Part shown: positions 10,561 to 60,310 of the stretch, one piece after another
Numbering within the stretch: position 1 is the stretch's first letter
Layout: every line of letters starts with the position of its first letter
Origin: Chloroflexus aggregans DSM 9485
GTDB taxonomy: Bacteria; Chloroflexota; Chloroflexia; Chloroflexales; Chloroflexaceae
DNA: 64,000 nucleotides
NCBI RefSeq assembly: GCF_000021945.1
Contig: NC_011831.1
Coordinates: forward strand, 2,989,353 to 3,053,352
Direction of reading: 5' to 3'
Made by a program: the position numbers and the translations under genes
The notes under the pieces: model-generated
What the model saw: only the letters and a program-made list of their open reading frames with translations
Database searches by the model: none
What the model was told of the DNA's origin: nothing

Positions 10561-13500
10561 TCACTCTTCCCCTGCCAACTGCACCATCACCGGCTCATCA
10601 TCGCCACTCACCAGCAATGCCCGTCCCGGTGGTTGCTCAAACGTGCGCTGGTCGGTGAGTGGCAGGTTTAAACCCAGCAATCGCGTGCCGGTGTCGTAGC
10701 GGCCCGGCCAGAGTACAATGCCATTACGGGCACTGTCGAGTGCTCGGAGCAGCGGATCATCGGCATAACTTATCGTGGCAGCAATTAAAAGGTGGAACGG
10801 TTCGTCACCGGTTTGCGCCAGCTCTACCAGTTGGTTGAATACATTGGGGGTTGGACCATAACTCTGCGTGAAGTGATCTCGCCATCGCTCGCGGCAGAGA
10901 TGATAATCATCAATTATGATCAAATATCGTTCGGTTGGATGATGACGTAACTCGGTTAGTTCGACGCTAAAAGCGATGAGACCGGCTTCATCGACGATAT
11001 AACGCACTGTTTGTGGTACGGTGCGCAATTGACTGAGACTGCGCCGTGGCCCATCGATAATGATCATTCGCACGGTTGCTTCCGTTTGAACTTCGTGGGC
11101 CACGGTAAGCAGCGTGCTACTCTTACCACTTCGGCGTGGCCCAATAATAAGTGCGTGGGGTGTCGCCGAGCCGAGGTGTAGGAAGGCCGGACCGGGTGGT
11201 TCTGCCGACCAGCCACAAGGTATGATCAGACCGATGTCACCTCGTCTGACTTTCGGTAATTGTTTACGTGACAATCGCTCGGGGAGGATTGCTAGCGGTG
11301 GCGGTCCGTTACAAGCCGATGCAAGACCGCCCATTGCTGCTACCTGCGCTCGAATTGCATAGGTGATTTCGCGACTATCACTACTGTCGCCCCACTCTTC
11401 TGGTAATCCAACTTGTAGTTCTAGCAACCCCTCATCGTTGTGCAGCCAATAACCCCGTCCTGGTGTTAATGGGGGTAATTGGGTTGCCGGTCGAATCCCA
11501 AAAACGTCGGTGTAATCGTTGAGTTCAGGCATCCGCAACGCTACCCGCTGCTCGAATTGGGCGGCCAGGCAGTATGGCAGGTCTGATGCTCGCTCAGCAC
11601 TGATGATGATGTGTAATCCAAGGTCGCGTCCATAACGGGCAAGTCGTACCAACTCCACCAGATCACTTTCGCCATAGGTGTCGCGCAGCTCATCGCGCAC
11701 TGCTGCTATGCGGTCGATGGCGAGGAGCAACGGTGGTCCCGGTGGTTGCCCGGCAGCCACCCGTGTTCTCCGCTCGCGTAGATGGTTGTCGAGTTGACGG
11801 AAGAGTGCGAGTAACGCTTCTCGCTCGAATGGGCGCACAAGTGCTCCGACATGCGGCAGGCCGGCGAGTGCATTGAGCAAGCGACCATCGCCATCGATCA
11901 GGTAGCACCAGAGAGCGTCGGATGGTAATCGGGAGGCTAGATCAAGCACGATCCGGGTCAGAGCGACGCTTTTACCACTTGCCGGCCCACCAAAAATGAC
12001 AAGATGACCGGCTTTTAGATCGATAAGTAGTGGTGCTTGTCGGGTTTGTTGGGGAATATCGAGTAATCCAATCGCGACTTGTAGACCACTGGCCGGTGCA
12101 GTTGTCGTCAAACGCGCTGATAAGGGTGGTTGCCAAATCGGTGATGGTTTCCAGTTGAGCGCATTGAGATGCACTTGACCGGCATTACACAATTGTCGTG
12201 TGACCGTCTCGAGATCACTCTGACCATTAGCTTGTGTCGTGAGCCGAGCAACCTGGACCAGTCGTACTTCGCTGCCACTCCGCATATAGGCGCGGCCCGG
12301 TAATTGTGGTGGTAAAAAAGCCGCATCAGGTCGTTGTAGCATTTCACGACTGTCTTCACTGCTCCCAAGACGAAGCGCAATGAAGTAGCTCAATTGACTA
12401 CGGATTTCATCACTTACGACGCGCGCCGGTTGTTGGGTTGCAATCAGTAAATGGACGCCTAGTGAGCGGCCTTGCTTTACGACGCGGACGAGAGCACTGA
12501 CAAAATCGGGACAACTGCGCGCCATTTCGTCAAATTCGTCAAGTATAATCAGCAAATTAGGCAGTGGTTCTAGCGGGTATTTGTTAGCTAAGGCTCGATA
12601 ATCGGCGATATTTTCAACATGCACACCGTAGGATTCGGTGACGGTGCGTAACATCGTTTTGCGTCGTCGCAATTCGCTCGTGATAGCTACGATTGCACGG
12701 GTTGCCATCCTGCCGTCAAGATCGGTGACAAAGCCGGTGGTATGCGGCCAATGAGCGAAGGGTGCCAGCGCAGCGCCACCTTTAAAATCGATAAGCAGTA
12801 AGTTCAACCGATCTGGACCGTGGGTTACAGCAAGGGCAGTGATAATACTCTGTAGCAAGACACTTTTCCCTGCACCGGTGGTGCCGGCAATAATCCCATG
12901 GGGGCCGTGTTGTTGTTCATTAAGATTGAGGTGTAATGGCTTTCCATCACCAACCGATCCAATAGGAACGTCGGCATGCCAGGCATTGGTCGGTAATTCT
13001 TGCCAGCGTGTGGGAACAGGATGGTTAGCGCCGAAATACTCTGCCAGCAAATCGAGCAATCGCACGTGGCGCGGTAGGTTTTGTCCAACGCCGACCTCGT
13101 TGAGACGTATTGTCGCCAGACGACGGGCTAGCTGTTCGATCCCACTGCGATCTAACCGATCGGGCTGGAAGGGTGTTGCAGGCCATGCTTCGCCGGCTCG
13201 TGTCCATCGTCCCATCCATTGATCGACCTCTACCATTGCCGCACAGTGCTCTGGCATATTGGCCCAATCGTCGGTGAGGACGACAACTATGATGCCGTAT
13301 GCTCCACCGTCACGCAGCAATTGACCGAGCGCAGTATGTACGGTAACTAACCCTGCACCATCGACGATGATCAAGATAGGTAAAGGGTTAGCCGACGCCA
13401 GTTCACGTCGTCGGCTCAATTCATCGAGTAAGAGGGTCAGGAGACGTTCGATGGCTGCTGCCTCTGTCGCTGCCAATACCCGTCCGGTTGCAGTTTCGTC

Positions 13501-14310
13501 GGCGAGTTGGGTGTGGGGTAGGCGTACTATCCATTGCCAATCGGGAGCAGCAGTGGGCGTTGCAATCAGAGCGATCCGCAGTTCAGAGGGAGCATGCAGA
13601 GTTGCTGCCTGTGCTAGTAGGGCATAGGCCAAACCTAAAACAGCAGAGCGTGGTCCGGCAATACCTAATGAACCGAGCTGACGTAACGGCAGGCAGATCG
13701 GTACATGCTGGAGATGGGCATATTCGGCGAGCAGGTGATCGATCCGACGGTCGGCCGGTGTACTTGGTGGAATCACAGCTCGGCTAGCCGCAGGTAACAT
13801 TCCGCTACCCAATCGTAACTCTAGCGCATCATCATCGTGTAGGCGTCGTTCCCATAAGCGTGGTTCAGGTGTGCGAAGACGTTCGCCCGCACCGGCGATC
13901 TGTAATAGCTCGACCGGATCAGGTGCAAGATAGCGTCGGGCGGATCGCTCTGCTTCGTGTAGGCGGCGGAGACGGGAGCGCGCGGCTGCGAGGCGATCAC
14001 TGAATAGCGCCTCTTGTTCGGTGTACGCTTGGGTGTTACGCCGTGCCGACTCTCGCTCGTGGAAGAGCGTGACGCTACCACTCAATAACGCCAACACTAA
14101 CGCCGGCAGCGACATGAGCCACGAGCCGTGACCAAACCAAGCACTGGCGCTAAACATGAGAGCGGCAATCACCGGCAACAAGGCCTGTAACCAGATCGTG
14201 GTCGTTCTGGGCGGCGGTGGGGTTGGTGGGGTTGGTAGTTCCACCGTCTCGGCGTGCCAACGTGGTCGTAAGCGTGGTGGCCGATTAAAATGACTGTAAT
14301 GATCCGGCAT
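10561..14310 (-). CDS. EccC/EssC-type secretion ATPase, three FtsK/SpoIIIE ATPase domains
   Basis: A 1249-residue inner-membrane motor of the type VII secretion class. After a Pro-rich N-terminus, two transmembrane helices (about residues 40-60 and 64-82) are followed by a basic coiled stretch and a degenerate ATPase-like domain (about 190-380). Three FtsK/SpoIIIE ATPase domains follow. Walker A motifs are GTTGAGKS (about 476-483), GGPASGKS (about 774-781) and GPRRSGKS (about 1057-1064). Walker B motifs are LLIILDEFDEMA, LLLAIDRIA and YLIIIDDYHLC. All three P-loops look intact. There is no N-terminal FHA pair as in Firmicutes EssC, so the protein resembles a fused actinobacterial EccCa-EccCb. 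It is the last gene of the locus, 13 bases after a WXG100 gene. A DNA translocase is the alternative, but the WXG100 neighbours argue strongly for protein export. Confidence 0.92.
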   Translation of the reverse strand: MPDHYSHFNRPPRLRPRWHAETVELPTPPTPPPPRTTTIWLQALLPVIAALMFSASAWFGHGSWLMSLPALVLALLSGSVTLFHERESARRNTQAYTEQEALFSDRLAAARSRLRRLHEAERSARRYLAPDPVELLQIAGAGERLRTPEPRLWERRLHDDDALELRLGSGMLPAASRAVIPPSTPADRRIDHLLAEYAHLQHVPICLPLRQLGSLGIAGPRSAVLGLAYALLAQAATLHAPSELRIALIATPTAAPDWQWIVRLPHTQLADETATGRVLAATEAAAIERLLTLLLDELSRRRELASANPLPILIIVDGAGLVTVHTALGQLLRDGGAYGIIVVVLTDDWANMPEHCAAMVEVDQWMGRWTRAGEAWPATPFQPDRLDRSGIEQLARRLATIRLNEVGVGQNLPRHVRLLDLLAEYFGANHPVPTRWQELPTNAWHADVPIGSVGDGKPLHLNLNEQQHGPHGIIAGTTGAGKSVLLQSIITALAVTHGPDRLNLLLIDFKGGAALAPFAHWPHTTGFVTDLDGRMATRAIVAITSELRRRKTMLRTVTESYGVHVENIADYRALANKYPLEPLPNLLIILDEFDEMARSCPDFVSALVRVVKQGRSLGVHLLIATQQPARVVSDEIRSQLSYFIALRLGSSEDSREMLQRPDAAFLPPQLPGRAYMRSGSEVRLVQVARLTTQANGQSDLETVTRQLCNAGQVHLNALNWKPSPIWQPPLSARLTTTAPASGLQVAIGLLDIPQQTRQAPLLIDLKAGHLVIFGGPASGKSVALTRIVLDLASRLPSDALWCYLIDGDGRLLNALAGLPHVGALVRPFEREALLALFRQLDNHLRERRTRVAAGQPPGPPLLLAIDRIAAVRDELRDTYGESDLVELVRLARYGRDLGLHIIISAERASDLPYCLAAQFEQRVALRMPELNDYTDVFGIRPATQLPPLTPGRGYWLHNDEGLLELQVGLPEEWGDSSDSREITYAIRAQVAAMGGLASACNGPPPLAILPERLSRKQLPKVRRGDIGLIIPCGWSAEPPGPAFLHLGSATPHALIIGPRRSGKSSTLLTVAHEVQTEATVRMIIIDGPRRSLSQLRTVPQTVRYIVDEAGLIAFSVELTELRHHPTERYLIIIDDYHLCRERWRDHFTQSYGPTPNVFNQLVELAQTGDEPFHLLIAATISYADDPLLRALDSARNGIVLWPGRYDTGTRLLGLNLPLTDQRTFEQPPGRALLVSGDDEPVMVQLAGEE

Positions 14311-14323
14311 TGTTCGCTACCTG

Positions 14324-14650
14324 CTAATGTTGTTGTTGTGCGAGACGCTCTTGTTCGGCGCGCATGCGATTGATCCGATCCTGTTCAGCTCGGGCGCGAT
14401 CACTGGCCTGCGCGATTGCATTTGCCACCTGTAAGCATCGTTCACGTAACCGGATGGACGCGGCCTGAATAGTCGCATAGCGTGCTATCCATTCTTGTTG
14501 GCGCGGTCCTTCCCAGCTACCGAGCAATTCGGTAGTTGCTCGTGCGCGGCAGTTTGCTGCCGAGTCTAGTTCACCGGCTAACCGGCGCAACGCGCCAATC
14601 GCATCGTTAGCGGCTCCCCAATCCCAATACACGTCGTGCGGCCCTGACAT
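14324..14650 (-). CDS. WXG100-family protein (108 aa)
   Basis: A small helical-hairpin protein of the ESAT-6/CFP-10 type, normally a secreted substrate or partner of type VII systems. Two long helices are separated by a turn carrying Trp-x-Gly in ELLGSWEGPRQQEW (about residue 47). The second helix ends in a highly charged Arg/Glu-rich tail (RARAEQDRINRMRAEQERL) and then LAQQQH. A classic YxxxD/E export signal is not evident in the last residues. It lies between the lipase-like gene (15-base gap) and the EccC gene (13-base gap). Length is typical of the family, slightly long. Confidence 0.88.
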   Translation of the reverse strand: MSGPHDVYWDWGAANDAIGALRRLAGELDSAANCRARATTELLGSWEGPRQQEWIARYATIQAASIRLRERCLQVANAIAQASDRARAEQDRINRMRAEQERLAQQQH

Positions 14651-14665
14651 CGTGGTTGCCTCCTC

Positions 14666-16696
14666 TTAAGCCGAAAGTGGAGGTGCTTCCGGCCACTCAA
14701 TCTCAACGGCTGGTGGTTCGGATAGGGTCGGGATCGGTAGTAACTCGAACTTCATCGGATCGATGGTAAATGGCATCGTTTGTACCTCGTTGGGTAGACG
14801 GGTATAGTCGAACGTTTCGTAGGCGCTATGCGCAACGCTAGGTTGATCGATAGTTTGATTGTTCAAGGTATACACGTTATCGCGATACCGCAAATCGTCA
14901 TGTCCGGCACCAACCGCTTTCGCCAACGCATCGTCGCTATCAACATAGTGACGAACTGTGACGGCTTGAGCATTGATCGAGGAAGGTACGTCACTCCATT
15001 CACCTGCCGGACGCACGGCACCTAAGGTAGTAACGCTGGCTAATCGGATGTTGCGTTGCGCCAATGCGGTCTGTACCTGCGGATCATTACTTAGCAGGAT
15101 GCACATGCCACCGCCCATGCTGTGTCCGGTAAGGTGAAGGGTACTACCTTCCGGCAGGTTCTCAATCAGGTCGAGCATCCGGCTACGTACTGTTTGGTAG
15201 TAAGCATTTTCTGCGACGCGCTCTTTGCCCTCAGCAGTGTTAATGACCGAAACAAGGCCGTTCGTGCCATACGCCATATTGTCCAGGTTAAGACCACTGA
15301 TTCCAACAACATATTCTGTTTCGCCGACCCGAGCAGCGCGCACCTCCTCGCTGAGGTACGGACTAATCAGGCTGTGGGCATTGGCCTGCAATGCAGCCGG
15401 CGTGATCCGATAGGGTTGAGTGGCATCAAGATTACACTCAAGCGGTGGAAAAACGGCTGTTGCCGAGACGTGACCATCTGGTTCGGCGTCTGGACCGGTT
15501 GTTGGGCGAGTCAATGGACCGAGTGATAAATTCATCCGGGCAGCATAATTAAGCTGCTCGAGCCGAATAGCCAGTTCGCGAATTTTATCCGGGGGTAGGT
15601 TCTCAAAAGCATTGATCCAAAGATCGTTTTCGAGTATTGCCAGTACCTCAACAGGATTAGAAACAGGTAGGCTTGGTCGCAGGCGATCAAGCTGTCCACT
15701 AGCTAACATTGCGAGTAAGGGAGAGGAAAGGATCAGCGTGGTTGCTAACGTACTGTATGGCCCCAGCCTCCATTTGAGAGACTGCCAATGCCGGGCGAAG
15801 CTGGTCACGATAGGCAATATCGTGTACAACTGTTGGTATTGCCCCACAATACTCGCACGCCGTTGAATCTGCTCGGCGAGATGTGAGAGAGACGGAGGTA
15901 CGTTTGTGACCAACCCCAAATCGGCGATAGGTACAGCGAAATGTCCCAACGAGTTGAAGGGGAGCGGCATAAACCGCATCAGCCACGCGATAGTGTGAAG
16001 CGGAGGCAGCTCTAATGTGGTAATGACCTCCAAGTGACCTATCGTGCGCCAGATGTAATAGCGATAGGGTATGGCGGCAAACGTACCCCAATGGTGTTGC
16101 CAGGCTAAGAGTGACGGATAATACAACAGTGCTTGCCGGTGAAGCTGTTGTCCAAATGCGCCAAACAAATGTCGTATGGTCGTTCCGGTCAATACCGACC
16201 AAGAGCGTGACAAATGCAAGGTTGGTGCAATCACTCTGCTGAACCACCCTGAAGTTGTCAGGGACGTGCGAAGTTGTGGTTGCCAACGTGTCGGAGAGCG
16301 TAGCTCCCAGATAACACGCAATGCCATCCTCGCACCGAGATCGAACGCCGTCCGGGCAAGTCGATGAGGTGACAGCATTGGTTGACGGCTATTGCCAACG
16401 ATGATAGGTAGACCGTTACTCAGGGTCCTGACGTGCAAAACACCTTGATCTGCCGCCTCTAATCGGTCAGCCGTCGTGCGCACCCAAGCTGCCAGATCAC
16501 CGATCGAGCGATAGTGTGCAAACAACTCGTCGGTCAATCCATGCACTGCGGGAACACTGTATTCACGGCAACGAGACTGAAACCGATTGAGTGTCGTTGA
16601 GAGATGGCCGGTTATTGCTTGCAAATGGTCGAGATCGGTAGTGACAACCGCAGCAAACCGGCGTAAATGCTCTGGAATAGCAGCGACGGTATTCAT
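14666..16696 (-). CDS. Lipase-like alpha/beta hydrolase with helical N-terminal region, probable type VII substrate
   Basis: A 676-residue protein. The first 90 residues are helical and resemble the WXG100/LXG leader region of type VII substrates (DHLQAITGHLSTTLNRF, then LAAWVRTTADRLEAAD). Residues about 110-345 are rich in Trp, His, Leu and Tyr, with several weakly hydrophobic helices. The C-terminal third is a class 3-type lipase domain: nucleophile Ser near 526 in LTGHSMGGGM, an acid in YVDSDDAL (near 588) and a His in VAHSAYETF (near 623). I chose the ATG at 16694-16696 because it overlaps the stop of the EspG-like gene as ATGA, pointing to coupled translation. It may be an exported effector or a membrane-remodelling lipase; no immunity gene is obvious unless the EspG-like protein fills that role. 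Confidence 0.82.
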   Translation of the reverse strand: MNTVAAIPEHLRRFAAVVTTDLDHLQAITGHLSTTLNRFQSRCREYSVPAVHGLTDELFAHYRSIGDLAAWVRTTADRLEAADQGVLHVRTLSNGLPIIVGNSRQPMLSPHRLARTAFDLGARMALRVIWELRSPTRWQPQLRTSLTTSGWFSRVIAPTLHLSRSWSVLTGTTIRHLFGAFGQQLHRQALLYYPSLLAWQHHWGTFAAIPYRYYIWRTIGHLEVITTLELPPLHTIAWLMRFMPLPFNSLGHFAVPIADLGLVTNVPPSLSHLAEQIQRRASIVGQYQQLYTILPIVTSFARHWQSLKWRLGPYSTLATTLILSSPLLAMLASGQLDRLRPSLPVSNPVEVLAILENDLWINAFENLPPDKIRELAIRLEQLNYAARMNLSLGPLTRPTTGPDAEPDGHVSATAVFPPLECNLDATQPYRITPAALQANAHSLISPYLSEEVRAARVGETEYVVGISGLNLDNMAYGTNGLVSVINTAEGKERVAENAYYQTVRSRMLDLIENLPEGSTLHLTGHSMGGGMCILLSNDPQVQTALAQRNIRLASVTTLGAVRPAGEWSDVPSSINAQAVTVRHYVDSDDALAKAVGAGHDDLRYRDNVYTLNNQTIDQPSVAHSAYETFDYTRLPNEVQTMPFTIDPMKFELLPIPTLSEPPAVEIEWPEAPPLSA

Positions 16697-17487
16697 GCGG
16701 CCTCGCAGATCCAAGCCCCAAACTCATCTACCCGTGAACGTAAACCTTTGACGCCGACCGGCCACAGTGCCATGAGATCGGCATGCTCAGGTGCCGGGGC
16801 AGCCCACCAACCACCGTAACGTCCGGCGATAACCAAAGCACCGCGCGCTTCAGGCTGAGGTTGTCGCATATGCCGGATCGCGGCTAGAGCGTAGCGCGAG
16901 GGTTTTGGGCCGATAGTCTCAACCAACGTGTGGGCTATCGCCGGTGAACTACCGTGTTTCTGTAACGCCCACACGGCCATTTGGAGGTCGTTGTGATGCA
17001 GTGCATTAAACGCGGTCAACACTGCTTCACCATTCAAAAGCACAGGTGTTTCATTGTCCGGTTCGCGGAAGTTCGCCGGTGCGAGCAGATCAAGCATTGT
17101 GTCGGTCACTTGCTTTGCATCACTGATTGCCTGGAAACGGTGTACATCTGGTAAAGGACTACTGTGGAGAACGAAGCGCTGACCAAACCGACTAATATGA
17201 CCAAGGCGCGTGGGTGGACCGCTGGCGACGATAAGTAGACTGTCGGCGAGTGCTACTGTGCGCAGGAGCGTGGCAAGCTCAGGGTGGGGTAACGGTGGCT
17301 CCTCAGATTCTGGTGATAAGGTCAACAAATCACGTGCAGCGAGACTACTCATTGCGGTATTCAACATGCCTTCGAGCAGTGGACGTTCGGGCAGAGTACC
17401 TTGTCCAAGCGAAAAGGGGCGTGGCAACTCGAGTAACCCGAGTAACAACAACAACTCTGCGTGATTGATTTGGAATATCGATGTCAT
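16693..17487 (-). CDS. EspG-like secretion chaperone candidate (264 aa)
   Basis: I cannot assign this protein firmly. Its N-terminal layout (AELLLLLGLLELPRPFSLG, then a long helix SLAARDLLTLSP, then HPELATLLRTVALADSLLIV) and its mixed alpha/beta composition without membrane segments recall EspG, the cytoplasmic chaperone of ESX substrates in actinobacteria. The C-terminal part contains ARGALVIAGRYGGWW and ends GAWICEAA. It is encoded between the first WXG100 gene and the lipase-like gene, with a 4-base ATGA overlap to the latter, as expected for a substrate-specific chaperone. An immunity protein for the lipase is the main alternative. Confidence 0.65.
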   Translation of the reverse strand: MTSIFQINHAELLLLLGLLELPRPFSLGQGTLPERPLLEGMLNTAMSSLAARDLLTLSPESEEPPLPHPELATLLRTVALADSLLIVASGPPTRLGHISRFGQRFVLHSSPLPDVHRFQAISDAKQVTDTMLDLLAPANFREPDNETPVLLNGEAVLTAFNALHHNDLQMAVWALQKHGSSPAIAHTLVETIGPKPSRYALAAIRHMRQPQPEARGALVIAGRYGGWWAAPAPEHADLMALWPVGVKGLRSRVDEFGAWICEAA

Positions 17488-17515
17488 CCGTCTTCCTCCA
17501 TATCAAATACTTGAA

Positions 17516-17549
17516 CAGAAGCCGGCAGAACGAAACCTGCCGGCTTCTG
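17516..17549 (-). terminator. Perfect 13-bp hairpin inside the secretion-like operon
   Basis: CAGAAGCCGGCAG (17516-17528) and CTGCCGGCTTCTG (17537-17549) pair perfectly around an 8-base loop. The structure sits 7 bases after the stop of the first WXG100 gene and before the EspG-like gene. Only a weak T-rich stretch follows on the minus strand, so it may be a partial terminator or an mRNA-stabilising end that keeps the WXG100 message more abundant than the downstream genes. Confidence 0.65.
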
Positions 17550-17556
17550 CTTGTGC

Positions 17557-17835
17557 TTATTGACCACCGGCCTGCATAATGTTTTGGTTAATCTGAGCGA
17601 CTTGCCGGCGCAACTCTTCAAGTGAACCCTGAATAGCTAACAACTTCTGATGCGTCTCAGCCCAATGCGATCGGAACTGAGCGGCAAGGCGTCCATCCCA
17701 GTTGTTAGGATCTGAAAGAACCTGTCCTTCACGGTTCAGATCGCTAATTTGCTGCAACAGTGGCCCTTGCACAATCCGTTGAAATCGTTCTACCGCTTCT
17801 CGTGCAGTTGCCGTCGAGAGTACCCGGTCACTCAT
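17557..17835 (-). CDS. WXG100-family protein (92 aa), first gene of the secretion-like operon
   Basis: A 92-residue helical-hairpin protein with Trp-Asp-Gly in DPNNWDGRLAAQF near residue 48 and two amphipathic helices either side (AVERFQRIVQGPLLQQI and HQKLLAIQGSLEELRRQV). Size and motif match the WXG100 family. I chose the ATG at 17833-17835 because it follows CGAAAGGAG at good spacing; an upstream start would add 21 unrelated residues. A TATATA -10 candidate is at 17874-17879 on the minus strand. With the 108-residue paralogue at the other end of the locus it could form a heterodimer. Confidence 0.88.
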   Translation of the reverse strand: MSDRVLSTATAREAVERFQRIVQGPLLQQISDLNREGQVLSDPNNWDGRLAAQFRSHWAETHQKLLAIQGSLEELRRQVAQINQNIMQAGGQ

Positions 17836-19850: not shown

Positions 19851-21345
19851 GTCTGGCTTGCGGCAGTCGCCCTGCCGCACCCCGTAGCACATTGCGGCAA
19901 GGCCACTACCGCTCGCCACGGCGGGTATGGATTGCGACAGTTGTACTGCCGCACACCACAGCAATTGCTGCAAGTCACTGTCACCTGCTACAGTGGGCCT
20001 GAAATGCGGCAGTCGCACTGCCGCTCGTCACCGTAAACTGCGGCACGTCACTGCCGCCCGTCACAGCATCAGGTCCCAACTACAGCCATCAAACGGAAGT
20101 CTCACTCCCCGCGATTACCCTGTCACGTGCCGCACCCAAGCGTAGCGCCGGGCCGTATCGTGTGCAGGCGACAATGTGCGCTATCCCGGTGGTGCGGCAT
20201 CACGTCGCGGGAGCGTGCGGCGCCGGCACTGCGGATTGTGTGTGTTGCTCCCCCCGCGTGAGGTAGCACACCTCACGTCCAGCCACCACACAGCAGGTCT
20301 GGCTTGCCTTGCGACAGTCACCCTGCCGCTCGTCACCGCAAACTGCGACAGGCCACTGCCGCTCGTCACCGCAAACTGCGACAGGCCACTGCCGCCCGCC
20401 ACAGCACATTGCGGTAAGGCCACTGCCGCCCGCCACAGCGGGTATGGATTGCGGCAGTCGCCCTGCCGCACCCCACAGCACATTGCGGCAAGGCCACTGC
20501 CGCTCGCCACAGCACATTGCGGCAAGGCCACTGCCGCTCGCCACAGCACATTGCGGTAAGGCCACTGCCGCCCGCCACAGCATCAGGTTCCGACTACAGC
20601 CATCAAACGGAGGTCTCACTCCCCGCGACCACCACTGTCACGTGCCGCACCCAAGCGTAGCGCCGGGTCGCATCGTGTGCAGGCGACGATGTGCGCTATC
20701 CCGGTGGTGCAGCATCACGTCGCGGGAGCGTGCGGGGCCGGCACTACGGATTGTGTGTTGCTCCCCCCGCGTGAGGTAGGCACACCTCACGTCCAGCCAC
20801 CACACAGCAGGTCTGGCTTGCGGCAGGCCACTGCTGCACTCCACAGCACATTGCGATAAGGCCACTGCCGCTCGCCACGGCGGGTCTGGCTTGCGGCAGT
20901 CGCCCTGCCGCACCCCGTAGCACATTGCGGCAAGGCCACTACCGCTCGCCACGGCGGGTATGGATTGCGACAGTTGTACTGCCGCACACCACAGCAATTG
21001 CTGCAAGTCACTGTCACCTGCTACAGTGGGCCTGAAATGCGGCAGTCGCACTGCCGCTCGTCACCGTAAACTGCGGCACGTCACTGCCGCCCGTCACAGC
21101 ATCAGGTCCCAACTACAGCCATCAAACGGAAGTCTCACTCCCCGCGATTACCCTGTCACGTGCCGCACCCAAGCGTAGCGCCGGGCCGTATCGTGTTCAG
21201 GCGACAATGTGCGCTATCCCGGTGGTGCGGCATCACGTCGCGGGAGCGTGCGGTGCCGGCACTGCGGATTGTGTGTGTTGCTCCCCCCGCGTGAGGTAGC
21301 ACACCTCATGTCCAGTCACCACACAGCAGGTCTGGCTTGCGGCAG
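19851..21345 (+). repeat. Hairpin-rich repeat tract with a ~458-bp direct duplication
   Basis: No gene is supported here. Segment 19851-20308 recurs at 20884-21341 (offset 1,033 bases) with only a few changes, and part of it recurs a third time at about 20580-20820. The unit is built of short stem-loops of the form GCGGCA-loop-TGCCGC whose loops differ while stems persist. The CCCCCCGCGTGAGG block recurs at about 19838, 20254, 20764 and 21286. Apparent long reading frames in several frames on both strands are by-products of the repeats. Confidence 0.85.
20309..20580 (+). repeat. 34-bp tandem repeats within the tract
   Basis: ACATTGCGG starts at 20480, 20514 and 20548, giving an exact 34-base period with near-identical units; looser units precede them from 20330. 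Each contains a GCGGCA...TGCCGC stem. There are no unique spacers, so it is not CRISPR. Confidence 0.8.
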
Positions 21346-29734: not shown

Positions 29735-30616
29735 TCACCGAGCGCTCGTTTCGGTTGTCATCACCGGCTTAATCACCCGCCCAAGTTGTTTAAACGCCAG
29801 TTCAATACCGTTTTGCAGATGAGCACCGATGAGAATACTGTGTAAATCGACGCCGAGCTGGACCATGGTTTGGGCAATTTCCGGGCCGATCCCGACCAGA
29901 ATGACCTGTGCGCCGATCAATTGGGCGGCGCGTGCCGTCTGCAAGAGGTAATTGGCGACGGCGGTATCGATGACGGGTACGCCGGTAATATCGATGATGA
30001 CGATATCCGATTGGCGTTCGGCGATGGCGGTCAATAAGCGTTCCATGATCTGGCCGGCGCGAAAGCTATCGATAGCGCCGACCAGCGGTAGGACCAAAAT
30101 GCCTTCGTACAGCGGCAAGATAGGTGTACTCAGCTCGCGGATGGTCTGTTGTTGTGATGTGATCTGTTCGTGTTGATCGCGAAGCTGATGGTACAATCCT
30201 CGGTACGTCACGTCAAAGCTGTTCACCATCGCTCGCTGAAAATACGCTAACAGATCCGCCACCAGGCGCACCGTAGCAATGGTGCAATCAGATCGTTGAG
30301 CAGCAAAAGCTTCCAGCGCTTCCCACGTCAATGCGCGAAAATTGTTTATTGCCACTAGCACATCATTCAGGGAGAGACCGCCGAGGGCACGCATCTCCCC
30401 CACGGCTTCGGCGTGGGCTAAAAATGATGCGAGATCTTGGGTGCCGATGGCTTCAGCCAACTCCTCGATGGTTGTGCTCATCGTGCTCAGCATATCCTCT
30501 CGCTCGAGGTTAGCGTATCCCTCACTCTGTTCCTGCACACGCCGCGCCAATTCAGCAAGTATCTCTGTGCGGCGATTGAGGATAAAGTCTTGTAGATCGG
30601 TAAAAATACTGGTCAT
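29735..30616 (-). CDS. RsbR-like STAS-domain regulator, copy 3 of 3
   Basis: A 293-residue stressosome-type regulator. Residues 1-165 are an all-helical RsbRD-like sensor domain (FILNRRTEILAELARRVQEQ onwards); a coiled linker with QQQTIRELSTPILPLYEG leads into a C-terminal STAS domain (about 175-280) holding IIDITGVPVIDTAVANYLL with the Thr/Ser positions phosphorylated by RsbT-type kinases. The ATG follows GAGGAGG. It is the last of three tandem paralogues. Its end PVMTTETSAR is unique. No rsbT or rsbS gene is in the window, so a partner phosphatase such as the one at 6417-7574 is only a suggestion. Confidence 0.87.
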   Translation of the reverse strand: MTSIFTDLQDFILNRRTEILAELARRVQEQSEGYANLEREDMLSTMSTTIEELAEAIGTQDLASFLAHAEAVGEMRALGGLSLNDVLVAINNFRALTWEALEAFAAQRSDCTIATVRLVADLLAYFQRAMVNSFDVTYRGLYHQLRDQHEQITSQQQTIRELSTPILPLYEGILVLPLVGAIDSFRAGQIMERLLTAIAERQSDIVIIDITGVPVIDTAVANYLLQTARAAQLIGAQVILVGIGPEIAQTMVQLGVDLHSILIGAHLQNGIELAFKQLGRVIKPVMTTETSAR

Positions 30617-31960
30617 GCGACCTCCTCGTCGCTGCTGTCTTCTTTGGCTCGGTCACCTTAGACCGGTCACCTTAGATTAGATACCTTTCCATCGATGGCT
30701 TAATTGCCCGTCCAATGCGGCTCAGCGCTAATTCAAGACCGTTTTGTAAACTTGCTCCGATGATAATGTTACTTAAATCGACGCCGAGCTGGACCATGGT
30801 TTGGGCAATTTCCGGGCCGATCCCGACCAGAATGACCTGTGTGCCGATCAATTGGGCGGCGCGTGCCGTCTGCAAGAGGTAATTGGCGACGGCGGTATCG
30901 ATGACGGGTACGCCGGTAATATCGATGATGACGATATCCGATTGGCGTTCGGCGATGGCGGTCAATAAGCGTTCCATGATCTGGCCGGCGCGAAAGCTAT
31001 CGATAGCGCCGACCAGCGGTAGAACTAAAATGCCTTCGTACAGCGGCAAGATAGGTGTACTCAGCTCGCGGATGGTCTGTTGTTGAGCCGCAATCCGGTC
31101 AGCCTGATCGTGGATTTGTGCTTGCACTTCACGGTAGACCTGGCTAAAGCTAGTAAGCAAAGTCTGTCCAAAGGCTTGCAGGATATCTTCCACCCGCCGA
31201 ACGTGCGAGACGGTAACGACCTTACGATCGCGGTCATACGCTTCTATCGTATCCCAAGCGACATGTCGCAGTTCATTAAGAGCGGCGAACATGTCACCGG
31301 CAATAAAACCGCTCGCTGCCCGTGCTTCCCCTATAGCACGAGCGTGGGCAAGAAAGGGCTGTACATCTTCGGTAGCGACGGCATGCCATAGGGTTTGTAA
31401 TGATGTCGTCACCGCCTGCAACAGGGCCGCCCGATCCATAGCGGCATAGTTTGCCTGTTGAGCGCGCAGGCGGTCGGTGAAGATTTCGGCGATAGTGGGG
31501 AGCCGTGCTTCATTGAAGGCAGCGATGTCGGCAAGAATCTTTGGCATAGCAGTGTTGTCGGAGAACCGAGTCAGCGTATTGCATACCCTAATTGCTGTAA
31601 CGCCAACTCGATCCCGGCTTGCAAGTTAGCACCAATCCGAATCCCGCGTAGATCGACGCCGAGCTGGACAATAGTTTGGGCAATTTCCGGGCCGATCCCG
31701 ACCAGAATGACCTGTGCGCCGATCAATTGGGCGGCGCGTGCCGTCTGCAAGAGGTAATTGGCGACGGCGGTATCGATGACGGGTACGCCGGTAATATCGA
31801 TGATGACGATATCCGATTGGCGTTCGGCGATGGCGGTCAATAAGCGTTCCATGATCTGGCCGGCGCGAAAGCTATCGATAGCGCCGACCAGCGGTAGAAC
31901 TAAAATGCCTTCGTACAGCGGCAAGATAGGTGTACTCAGCTCGCGGATGGTCTTTTGTTG
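29848..31960 (-). repeat. Near-identical ~307-bp STAS-coding block in three copies
   Basis: The block occupies 29848-30154, 30779-31085 and 31654-31960, each in the same phase of its gene. Differences are only a handful of bases even at third codon positions, while flanking sensor-coding DNA does not align. Period is about 875-930 bases. This is the pattern of recent gene conversion. Confidence 0.9.
30672..31547 (-). CDS. RsbR-like STAS-domain regulator, copy 2 of 3
   Basis: A 291-residue paralogue of its neighbours. The helical sensor (FNEARLPTIAEIFTDRLRAQ, then LWHAVATEDVQPFLAHARAI) differs clearly from the other two copies, while about 100 residues of the STAS domain are identical apart from one change (IGTQ instead of IGAQ). 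It lies 55 bases upstream of copy 3 and 23 bases downstream of copy 1, so all three are probably one transcript. Divergent sensors with a shared output suggest different input signals read by one partner set. Confidence 0.87.
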   Translation of the reverse strand: MPKILADIAAFNEARLPTIAEIFTDRLRAQQANYAAMDRAALLQAVTTSLQTLWHAVATEDVQPFLAHARAIGEARAASGFIAGDMFAALNELRHVAWDTIEAYDRDRKVVTVSHVRRVEDILQAFGQTLLTSFSQVYREVQAQIHDQADRIAAQQQTIRELSTPILPLYEGILVLPLVGAIDSFRAGQIMERLLTAIAERQSDIVIIDITGVPVIDTAVANYLLQTARAAQLIGTQVILVGIGPEIAQTMVQLGVDLSNIIIGASLQNGLELALSRIGRAIKPSMERYLI

Positions 31961-32416
31961 GGCTTCGATCTGCTCGGCCTGATCGCGTAATTCTTTTTGG
32001 AGTGACAGCATCGCCTGACTATAACCGAGCAGTAAAAGGCGATTGAACTCGTGAATCGCATCCTCAAACCGGCGCACATCATCAAGTGATACCCGATCGC
32101 TGCCAAAGGCATCGAGTTCTTGCCAGCAAAACTCACGGATGCGGTTTACAACGATCATCATGTCGTCGAGGGAGAGGCCCATTCGGGCACGACGTTCGCC
32201 AATCTGCGGTGCCCATTCGTTGACCGGCCCACTATCATTCTCACCGAAAAGCGCGCAGATCGTCTCAACCGAACGTTGCAGGGCTGGGCTTAATTCGTGG
32301 GCAGGAATAGCTGCATAGCCACTGCTATCGGCCTGGACAGCTTGGCGCAAGCGCTCTCGTGTTTGCGGTAAGCGCTCGCGAATGAACGTAGCGAGATCGG
32401 TTAGAGTGGTGCTCAT
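31571..32416 (-). CDS. RsbR-like STAS-domain regulator, copy 1 of 3
   Basis: A 281-residue paralogue and first gene of the triplet. The sensor contains FIRERLPQTRERLRQAVQAD and GLSDD-type helices (MGLSLDDMMIVVNRIREFCW), again unlike the others. The STAS core repeats LPLYEGILVLPLVGAIDSF and IIDITGVPVIDTAVANYLL exactly. It carries TIVQLGVDL where the others have TMVQLGVDL. The end, LQAGIELALQQLGYAIR, is unique. It begins 18 bases after the proS stop codon and may be read from the proS transcript. Confidence 0.87.
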   Translation of the reverse strand: MSTTLTDLATFIRERLPQTRERLRQAVQADSSGYAAIPAHELSPALQRSVETICALFGENDSGPVNEWAPQIGERRARMGLSLDDMMIVVNRIREFCWQELDAFGSDRVSLDDVRRFEDAIHEFNRLLLLGYSQAMLSLQKELRDQAEQIEAQQKTIRELSTPILPLYEGILVLPLVGAIDSFRAGQIMERLLTAIAERQSDIVIIDITGVPVIDTAVANYLLQTARAAQLIGAQVILVGIGPEIAQTIVQLGVDLRGIRIGANLQAGIELALQQLGYAIR

Positions 32417-38754: not shown

Positions 38755-38826
38755 ACGCAAAGACGGTAACGCAACGGCGTAGAGGGTGCCAAGGCGCGGG
38801 TAGCGCTCACGCAACGAGCGCCACCC

Positions 38827-39217
38827 GTAGGGGCACGGCACTGCCCCACGAAGGGCAAAAGGGCGTAGGGGCACGGCGCACCGTGCCCCCACGAAGGGCG
38901 AAAGGGCGTAGGGGCACGGCACGCCGTGCCCACGAAGGGCAAAAGGGCGTAGGGGCACGGCACGCCGTGCCCACGAAGGGCGAAAGGGCGTAGGGGCACG
39001 GCGCACCGTGCCCCCACGAAGGGCGAAAGGGCGTAGGGGCACGGCACGCCGTGCCCACGAAGGGCAAAAGGGCGTAGGGGCACGGCACTGCCCCACGAAG
39101 GGCAAAAGGGCGTAGGGGCACGGCACTGCCCCACGAAGGGCAAAAGGGCGTAGGGGCACGGCGCACCGTGCCCCCACGAAGGGCGAAAGGGCGTAGGGGC
39201 ACGGCACGCCGTGCCCC
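38827..39217. repeat. Tandem array of 10 GTAGGGGCACGGC units (38-43 bp)
   Basis: The gap between the convergent pullulanase and htpG genes holds ten units, each a hairpin GTAGGGGCACGGC...CCGTGCCCC followed by ACGAAGGGC(A/G)AAAGGGC. Three unit types differ in the hairpin: A (38 bp, CACTGCCCC), B (43 bp, GCACCGTGCCCCC) and C (41 bp, CACGCCGTGCCC). Their order is A B C C B C A A B C, the last cut short. Reading frames found here on either strand are repeat artefacts. Confidence 0.93.
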
Positions 39218-54297: not shown

Positions 54298-54690
54298 ACA
54301 TTTTTGCAACGCAAAGGACGTGAACGCAAAGGACGCTAACGTAAAGGCGCAAAGAGCGCAGAGGACGCTAACGCAAAGACGCAAAGGGCGCAGAGGACGC
54401 TAACGCAAAGACGCAAAGGGCGCAAAGGGCGCAGAGGGGTGAACGCAAAGACGCAGAGGGGTTGACGCAAAGACGCAAAGGCCCCTCACGCAACGAGCGC
54501 CACCGGTAGGGGCACGGCGGTGCCGTGCCCCTGCGCTAACGCAAAGGACGTGAACGCAAAGGACGCTAACGCAAAGGCGCAGAGGGCGCAGAGGCGCAGA
54601 GGGGTGAACGCAAAGACGCAAAGGGCGCAGAGGCGCAGAGGGGTGAACGCAAAGACGCAAAGGGCGCAAAGGCGCAGAGAGGGGATACGC
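54298..54690. repeat. ACGCAAAGGGCGCAGAGG-type tandem repeats
   Basis: The 708-base gap between divergent dnaE and fumC holds irregular tandem units of ACGCAAAGACGCAAAGGGC and GGACGCTAACGCAAAGGCGC, interrupted at 54507-54533 by one GTAGGGGCACGGCGGTGCCG hairpin, so the two repeat families are interleaved. Sequence between 54090 and 54297 is AT-rich and shows no gene. Confidence 0.88.
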
Positions 54691-59209: not shown

Positions 59210-60310
59210 AGGGCGCTAACGCAAAGACCGCAGAGGGAGCAAAGGACGCAAAGATTGCTGACGCAGAGAGTGTCACCCGTCGGGGCACGGCGGTGCCGTG
59301 CCCCCACGCAGGGCGGTAGGGGCACGGCATGCCGTGCCGCCACCAAGGGCAAAGGACGTTCACGCAAAGGGGGCAAAGGGGGCAAAGATCAGGATGTTGA
59401 CGCACAGCGCGCCACCCGTCGGGGCACGGCGGTGCCGTGCCGCTACGCAGGGCGGTAGGGGTACGGAGATGCCGTGCCCACACGCAGGGCGGTAGGGGTA
59501 CGGCGATGCCGTGCCCCCACGCAGGGCTGTAGGGGCACGGCGATGCCGTGCCCCCACGCAGGGCAAAGGTCGCTAACGCAAAGGGCGCAAAGGGGGCAAA
59601 GATCGCAAAGAGATGTTGACGCACAGCGCGCCACCCGTCGGGGTACGGCGGTGCCGTGCCGCCACGCAGGGCGGTAGGGGCACGGCGGTGCCGTGCCGCC
59701 ACCAAGGGCAAAGGACGCTCACGCAAAGGGGGCAAAGGGGGCAAAGATCGCAAAGAGATGTTGACGCACAGCGCGCCACCCGTCGGGGTACGGCGGTGCC
59801 GTGCCGCCACGCAGGGCGGTAGGGGCACGGCGGTGCCGTGCCGCCACCAAGGGCAAAGGACGCTCACGCAAAGGGGGCAAAGGGGACAAAGGTCGCAAAG
59901 GGCGTTGACGCACAGCGCGCCAGCCGTCGGGGTACGGCGGTGCCGTGCCGCCACGCAGGGCGGTAGGGGCACGGCGGTGCCGTGCCGCCACCAAGGGCAA
60001 AGGACGTTCACGCAAAGGGGGCAAAGGGGGCAAAGATCAGGATGTTGACGCACAGCGCGCCAGCCGTCGGGGTACGGCGGTGCCGTGCCGCCACGCAGGG
60101 CGGTAGGGGCACGGCGGTGCCGTGCCGCCACCAAGGGCAAAGGACGTTCACGCAAAGAGGGCAAAGGGGGCAAAGATCAGGATGTTGACGCACAGCGCAC
60201 CACCCGTCGGGGTACGGCGGTGCCGTGCCGCCACGCAGGGCGGTAGGGGTACGGCGGGGCCGTGCCCACACGAAGGGAAAAGGACGCTAACACAAAGGGC
60301 GCAAAGAGTT
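59210..60310. repeat. 1.1-kb tandem array of ~140-146 bp composite units
   Basis: GTTGACGCACAGCGC anchors at about 59396, 59614, 59760, 59904, 60044 and 60184, so the unit is 140-146 bases (218 in one copy with extra hairpins). Each unit joins two hairpins of the GTAGGGGCACGGCGGTGCCG type to an ACGCAAAGGGGGCAAAGG stretch. Frames up to 323 codons open on either strand are artefacts of the repeat. Confidence 0.93.

Follow-up and report, generated by a model that had tools for sequence, protein, structure and literature searches.

A reduced type VII secretion locus with a candidate lipase cargo in Chloroflexus aggregans

Gene content of the locus

The genome of the filamentous phototroph Chloroflexus aggregans DSM 9485 is a single contig of 4,684,931 bases, rated 99.99% complete. 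Within a stretch of 64,000 nucleotides of this contig (NC_011831.1, positions 2,989,353 to 3,053,352; hereafter the window), we analysed a compact operon of five genes on the minus strand (window 17835-10561). In order of transcription, it encodes a WXG100 protein (A), an EspG-fold protein, a protein with a lipase domain, a WXG100-like protein (B) and a motor ATPase of the EccC/EssC type (Table 1). A first-pass annotation of the DNA had described it as a minimal type VII secretion system (T7SS) locus of five genes on one strand with tiny gaps. This layout was confirmed, as all five open reading frames (ORFs) are open at the coordinates in Table 1 and the intergenic distances are 69, −3 (an overlap), 15 and 13 bp. 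The ATG of the lipase gene overlaps the stop codon of the EspG-like gene. The start of the gene for protein A was placed at the ATG at 17835, which has a Shine-Dalgarno sequence, within a listed ORF that extends to 17898. Purine-rich ribosome-binding sites precede the first, second and fourth genes of the operon.

Table 1. Genes of the operon, in order of transcription, with the evidence for each assignment (aa, amino acids)
Feature	Window position	Strand	Evidence
WXG100 protein A (EsxA/TsxA-like, 92 aa, WDG motif)	17557..17835	-	PF06013, TIGR03930
EspG-fold chaperone, 264 aa	16693..17487	-	AlphaFold2 model, Foldseek, VIA-align
Candidate cargo, 676 aa, EsxA-like hairpin + linker + class-3 lipase	14666..16696	-	Lipase_3, model
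WXG100-like protein B, 108 aa, WEG motif	14324..14650	-	TIGR03930 (weak), operon position
EccC/EssC motor ATPase, 1249 aa	10561..14310	-	TIGR03928, TIGR03924, TIGR03925, PDB relatives

The motor and the WXG100 proteins

The motor scored 549 bits against the EssC profile TIGR03928 (E 2e-164; cut-off 778) and also matched EccCa (TIGR03924, E 7e-125), EccCb (TIGR03925, E 7e-84) and FtsK_SpoIIIE of Pfam (E 1e-50). Overall, the EssC/EccC profiles gave 282-549 bits, compared with 48.5 bits for the FtsK profile. Its solved relatives in the PDB are 4nh0 (FtsK/SpoIIIE), YukB (9qks) and EccC5 (7np7), and these profiles and structures, EccC and YukB in particular, place it in the EccC/EssC family. Three Walker A motifs (residues 476, 774 and 1057) mark three FtsK-type ATPase domains. 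The earlier description of an EccC-type motor with three intact ATPase domains was thus borne out. Two transmembrane (TM) helices lie at the N-terminus (residues 39-57 and 65-83). No FHA domain was found among the Pfam matches, and there is no space for an N-terminal one because the first TM helix begins at residue 39.

Protein A matched TIGR03930 (E 8.5e-6) and PF06013 (E 1.1e-4; 22.8 bits, under the cut-off of 27.3). Its W46-D47-G48 motif is invariant in 14 homologues and its identity inside the genus is 90-95%, so that protein A provides the WXG100 protein, at least one of which belongs to a type VII locus in the broad definition. Of the two WXG100 proteins proposed at first, the other, protein B, is weak by profile. 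The WEG tripeptide of protein B is not invariant among its homologues, and these hold the same operon slot in Chloroflexales loci. Protein B is likely a partner of protein A or of the cargo. Apart from these, the genome yielded a single WXG100 gene (L001:1489-2334, genome position 1,114,004), which encodes a WXG100-CHAP fusion and is located far from the operon. Its product, whose CHAP domain is of the peptidoglycan amidase/peptidase type, is a plausible candidate for a second substrate, perhaps one used to open the cell wall, and the idea of a machine devoted to one lipase effector was accordingly too strict.

The predicted chaperone and the candidate cargo

The product of the second gene matched no Pfam or NCBIfam family by sequence. 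Its AlphaFold2 model, built from a 14-row alignment (pLDDT 88.4), matched the crystal structure of EspG3 (4w4j) over its full length, with a Foldseek E-value of 3e-12, a TM-score of 0.76 and a VIA-align Z of 20.9 (248 residues aligned, rmsd 3.1). The top PDB matches are all EspG chaperones, and the next unrelated row has a Z of 4.4. The predicted structure thus upholds the assignment as EspG-like and points to a member of the EspG chaperone family. When 400 genomes of the phylum were searched for EspG, 24 were positive, 22 of them in Chloroflexales.

The third protein matched Lipase_3 with an E-value of 1.2e-4, and its model and conservation are based on 18 homologues. In the model, two long helices (residues 8-42 and 50-83) are followed by a poorly predicted linker (pLDDT below 50 over residues 84-345) and an alpha/beta hydrolase domain; we delimited these parts as a hairpin (4-84), a variable linker (86-350) and a class-3 lipase domain (about 350-656). 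A full-length Foldseek search gave no match with an E-value below 0.001 because the linker is poorly predicted, and the domains were therefore compared separately with VIA-align. For residues 4-84, the match is the EsxA hairpin (2vrz_B), with a Z of 9.3 and an rmsd of 2.1 over 81 residues; for residues 419-629, it is class-3 lipases (4tgl; Z 9.6). The former Z value is moderate for a helical hairpin, and the Foldseek probability of 1.00 for EsxA together with the operon context adds support for a hairpin of the EsxA kind. Ser526 (in GHSMGGG), Asp586, Asp589, His599 and His623 are invariant in the 18 homologues. The hydrolase fold, the GxSxG serine (GHSMG) and the conserved Asp and His residues, which include candidates for the catalytic ones, identify a class-3 lipase. 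The EsxA-like N-terminal domain and the lipase fold support the proposal that this protein is the cargo; its export is what we infer from them. Moreover, a fusion of WXG100 and Lipase_3 adjoins a second-type motor in Candidatus Chloroploca (L067:14122-15339), which supports a lipase as a type VII cargo in Chloroflexales.

Inside Chloroflexus, the catalytic domain of the lipase is 64-72% identical, the hairpin 53-65% and the linker 22-25%. In polymorphic toxins the targeting part is conserved and the enzyme part is variable. The pattern observed here is the reverse, which suggests a fixed role for the lipase.

Conservation and selection

The same five genes occur in the same order in six other Chloroflexus genomes (L039-L044), making seven with C. 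aggregans; Chloroflexus islandicus is among the named relatives. We compared C. aggregans with two other Chloroflexus. Synonymous sites were saturated (pS 0.73-0.87), so that ratios could not be computed for most pairs. The proportion of nonsynonymous differences (pN) was 0.04-0.05 for WXG100 protein A, 0.15-0.18 for the motor, 0.19-0.24 for the EspG-like protein, 0.24-0.29 for protein B and 0.31-0.34 for the lipase. These values indicate that selection keeps all five proteins. Because of the shared gene order and the low nonsynonymous change, a chance co-occurrence of the five genes was rejected.

Components sought in the host genome

The first-pass annotation had noted that the parts known from actinobacterial and Firmicutes systems are missing beside the operon. 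Whole-genome profile searches for EccB, EccD, EccE, EssB and EsaA gave weak, fragmentary matches or none, and nothing over the cut-offs, where the searches for EccB, EccD and EccE had no positive control (no control genome over the cut-off), and those for EssB, EsaA and YukD each had one control genome over the cut-off, as expected for Bacillus subtilis. For MycP, only generic subtilases were found in the genome, with up to 237 bits against a cut-off of 278.75 and similar scores in controls lacking ESX. The genome therefore lacks recognisable T7SSa parts (EccB, EccD, EccE and MycP) and, among T7SSb parts, EssB, EsaA and EsaB/YukD, with EssA outside the search. The missing parts were thus not found in standard form elsewhere, and the minimal reading stands on this point.

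As a yardstick, T7SSa and T7SSb are too narrow, since eight further subtypes do without those parts (PMC11217815). More telling is that the cluster has no ubiquitin-like protein (YukD/TsxB), no kinase and no other partner in the membrane. YukD was not found by Pfam at an E-value of 0.1 in the C. aggregans genome, and the best genome match of a custom 16-row YukD-FHA profile (E 0.185) covered the FHA part only. Homologues of YukD, vWA-FHA and the lipoprotein were not found in the window; kinase, vWA-FHA, phosphatase and lipoprotein homologues were sought in the window and the fetched loci. The cluster thus lacks the parts of T7SSc (the YukD protein TscB, the kinase TscD, the vWA protein TscE and the phosphatase TscF), and its motor lacks the FHA domains of T7SSd. 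The term minimal holds for the locus and for all standard components tested; for the machine itself it would be too strong if an unrecognised partner is encoded elsewhere.

Related loci in Chloroflexales

Motor homologues with an E-value of 1e-40 or better were found in 54 of the 158 genomes of the class. Chloroploca, Viridilinea and Oscillochloris carry a more diverged form of the same gene set (homologues of A, B, lipase and motor). Outside Chloroflexus, the motor gene is followed by a gene for a YukD-FHA protein of about 220 aa. Several of the Chloroflexales clusters further contain genes for vWA-FHA, for a PP2C phosphatase and a Ser/Thr kinase, and for a protein resembling lipoproteins, with L061 containing nearly all of these. 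Within Chloroflexus, YukD-FHA was found only in G007 and G008, both of which have a second, separate type VII locus or its fragments. In G008 this second locus (L045:4098-10187) carries YukD-FHA and two WXG100 genes, and contig 91 of G007 seems to hold its broken counterpart, which has a stop in frame.

The seven Chloroflexus rows of the motor tree group in a single clade (100/100) on a long stem branch (0.91), inside a group of 19 rows (100/100) in which all non-Chloroflexus rows have YukD adjoining the motor. The adjacency of YukD requires three changes on this tree, compared with a mean of 11 after shuffling. Because the Chloroflexus clade nests inside motors adjoined by YukD, the simplest reading of this midpoint-rooted tree would be that parts were lost at the base of Chloroflexus. 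Far from being a lone oddity, the Chloroflexus locus represents, across the whole genus, a reduced version of a larger system of Chloroflexales.

Two further observations were made among the related loci. Three Chloroflexales loci (L075:4079-13057, L076:2154-10769 and L077:5357-14233) encode giant EccC/EssC-like proteins of 2,870-2,990 aa, about twice the size of the usual motor. In the one tested, FtsK_SpoIIIE matches seven stretches, and its scores exceed the EssC and EccCa cut-offs by a wide margin. Next to the giant motor genes lie a YukD-FHA gene, a kinase gene and several WXG100-like genes in tandem, and no giant motor was found in the C. aggregans genome. In another related type VII locus, the WXG100 genes are separated from the lipase-type gene by an FGE-sulfatase (formylglycine-generating-enzyme-like) gene (L066:4241-5107).

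Other features of the window

Upstream of the operon lies about 3 kb without a clear gene (18.0-21.4 kb), which contains a tandem repeat array (20309-21100). Further arrays were found at 38826-39217, 54308-54679 and 59282-60306. Many of the arrays in the window consist of GC-rich units, about 34-142 bases long. In addition, three neighbouring paralogous genes (29735-32416) have near-identical STAS-like C-terminal halves (ELSTPILPLYEGILVLPLVGAIDSFRAGQIMERLL...), which suggests recent gene conversion or duplication.

Interpretation

As judged from the sequences, this is a real, conserved, selected and reduced type VII locus, and it probably encodes a reduced type VII secretion system. In such a system, the EspG-like chaperone would keep the hairpin domain of the lipase, possibly paired with protein B, soluble within the cytoplasm. 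Docking would involve the WXG tips and C-terminal tails on one side and the ATPase domains of the motor on the other, and the motor would form a ring via its own TM helices and drive the hairpin-led cargo across the cytoplasmic membrane. Protein A, by far the most conserved part, would be the core Esx-type component. Once exported, the lipase may act on lipids beyond the cytoplasmic membrane. Most likely these would be in the cell's own envelope layers, because the catalytic domain is more conserved than the targeting domain and the linker. We infer both the export and this target. Most simply, the ancestor of this branch would have had a larger machine with a YukD-FHA subunit and often genes for vWA-FHA, a kinase and a phosphatase. 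In Chloroflexus, these would have disappeared from the locus at the least, and the YukD part would be gone from every genome of the genus in which only the five-gene system exists.

Several points weigh against this interpretation. The TIGR03930 match of protein B is weak (E 0.023), and the motor scores under the equivalog cut-offs of EssC and EccCa. A motor working alone would be unprecedented, because every described subtype retains a ubiquitin-like protein or a membrane partner (PMC11217815). Furthermore, an unclustered or divergent partner would escape the profiles used. Whether the motor works without a further membrane partner is the main uncertainty, and that it does so appears doubtful to us. 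Only tentatively do we propose the full picture of a working exporter in which the motor is the only membrane component, without a ubiquitin-like subunit, and a fixed lipase has as its target the unusual outer layer of a phototroph with a diderm-like envelope.

Partners encoded elsewhere and unrecognised by the profiles, such as a small TM protein, a kinase or a replacement of YukD, membrane-bound or cytoplasmic, would mean that the machine is not minimal. We regard this as a serious possibility, if a little less than an even one. Subtype-specific partners without similarity to T7SSa/b parts have been described (PMC11217815), and related Chloroflexales clusters have partners on the opposite strand or unlinked. 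However, no such gene adjoins the locus in the seven Chloroflexus genomes, and YukD-FHA, which is the partner found most constantly beyond Chloroflexus, is missing from the whole C. aggregans genome.

The lipase could also be an antibacterial toxin, with the locus serving as a device against competitors. Type VII lipase toxins are known from Bacillota (TslA, PMC10730906), and an N-terminal hairpin joined to a C-terminal enzyme is the layout of LXG toxins. Nevertheless, we consider this rather unlikely, since no adjoining immunity gene was recognised in Chloroflexus, the same type of lipase sits in the same slot across all these loci, and its catalytic domain is better conserved than the hairpin and linker, opposite to polymorphic toxins.

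A decaying, non-functional remnant of a larger system would fit the loss of parts relative to sister lineages and the long stem branch. This reading is very improbable and was rejected because of purifying selection: none of the five frames is interrupted in any of the seven genomes, the nonsynonymous change of 0.04-0.34 contrasts with saturated synonymous sites, and the catalytic residues of the lipase are invariant. One stop interrupts the motor gene in an additional assembly, G009, which is fragmented.

Finally, a reading of the 1249-aa protein as a DNA translocase (FtsK, HerA or conjugation type) unconnected with protein export, a possibility raised in the first-pass annotation and checked here with profiles, was rejected as having a negligible chance of being correct: the protein has FtsK_SpoIIIE domains in common with true FtsK, but the EssC/EccC profiles far outscore FtsK, the nearest solved relatives are EccC and YukB, its gene shares an operon with WXG100 and EspG-fold proteins, and the best FtsK_SpoIIIE match of the genome is a separate 783-aa protein elsewhere.

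For two questions in type VII secretion, how far an EccC/EssC motor can function once its partners are gone and whether it forms the membrane channel, a reduced system in Chloroflexus would be a natural test case, in which the recognised partners searched for, including the ubiquitin-like subunit, are missing and the motor, WXG100 proteins, chaperone and cargo are under selection. The envelope of C. aggregans is diderm-like, its outer layer is atypical, and genes for lipopolysaccharide and bamA are absent (PMC7332563), which raises the question of how a cargo would pass the outer layer.

Comparison with known type VII systems

Garrett et al. (2024) added T7SSc to T7SSj, eight subtypes from Bacillota and Actinomycetota, and did not mention Chloroflexota (PMC11217815). 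Chloroflexi had been mentioned as a source of WXG100 proteins in 2014 (PMC3935865) and again in a 2023 review (PMC10765036). We found no description of a Chloroflexus T7SS locus in the open-access literature searched, which omits most subscription papers. As far as this literature goes, the kind of system is known, and the composition and setting of the Chloroflexus locus appear to be new. They would extend the subtyping past Bacillota and Actinomycetota into Chloroflexota, with the loss of parts readable along a tree. The subtype comparison below rests on gene composition, and not on a tree with T7SSa-T7SSj reference motors.

The closest likenesses are to subtypes of Bacillota. T7SSc, g and h also have a motor without an N-terminal FHA domain; WXG100 proteins are combined with an EspG-like protein in T7SSc, h and i, and two WXG100 proteins occur in T7SSg (PMC11217815). 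In addition, T7SSc shares a kinase, a vWA protein and a PP2C-type phosphatase with the wider Chloroflexales clusters. Unlike T7SSc, g, h and i, the Chloroflexus locus belongs to a different phylum, lacks YukD/TsxB as well as a kinase or any other membrane partner, and contains a lipase in forward orientation; in its relatives, the vWA and FHA form a fusion. T7SSd of Actinomycetota is the only other subtype without a ubiquitin-like protein and has five core parts (PMC11217815). However, its motor bears FHA domains, and it possesses a kinase, TsdH and the large, envelope-spanning TsdI, none of which was recognised beside the Chloroflexus locus.

With the mycobacterial ESX-3 and ESX-5 systems (T7SSa), the locus shares an EccC motor, a WXG100-type pair and the EspG fold, but EccB, EccD and EccE were undetected genome-wide in C. 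aggregans and no MycP exceeded the cut-off. TslA/TilA of the Staphylococcus aureus T7SSb resembles the Chloroflexus lipase in that a lipase is joined to a helical type VII targeting domain (PMC10730906). In TslA this domain is C-terminal and an immunity lipoprotein is co-encoded (PMC10730906), whereas the Chloroflexus lipase has no such neighbour; a reverse orientation as in TslA was rejected, as its EsxA-like hairpin sits N-terminally. Among the systems compared, the Chloroflexus operon is the smallest type VII-like export locus.

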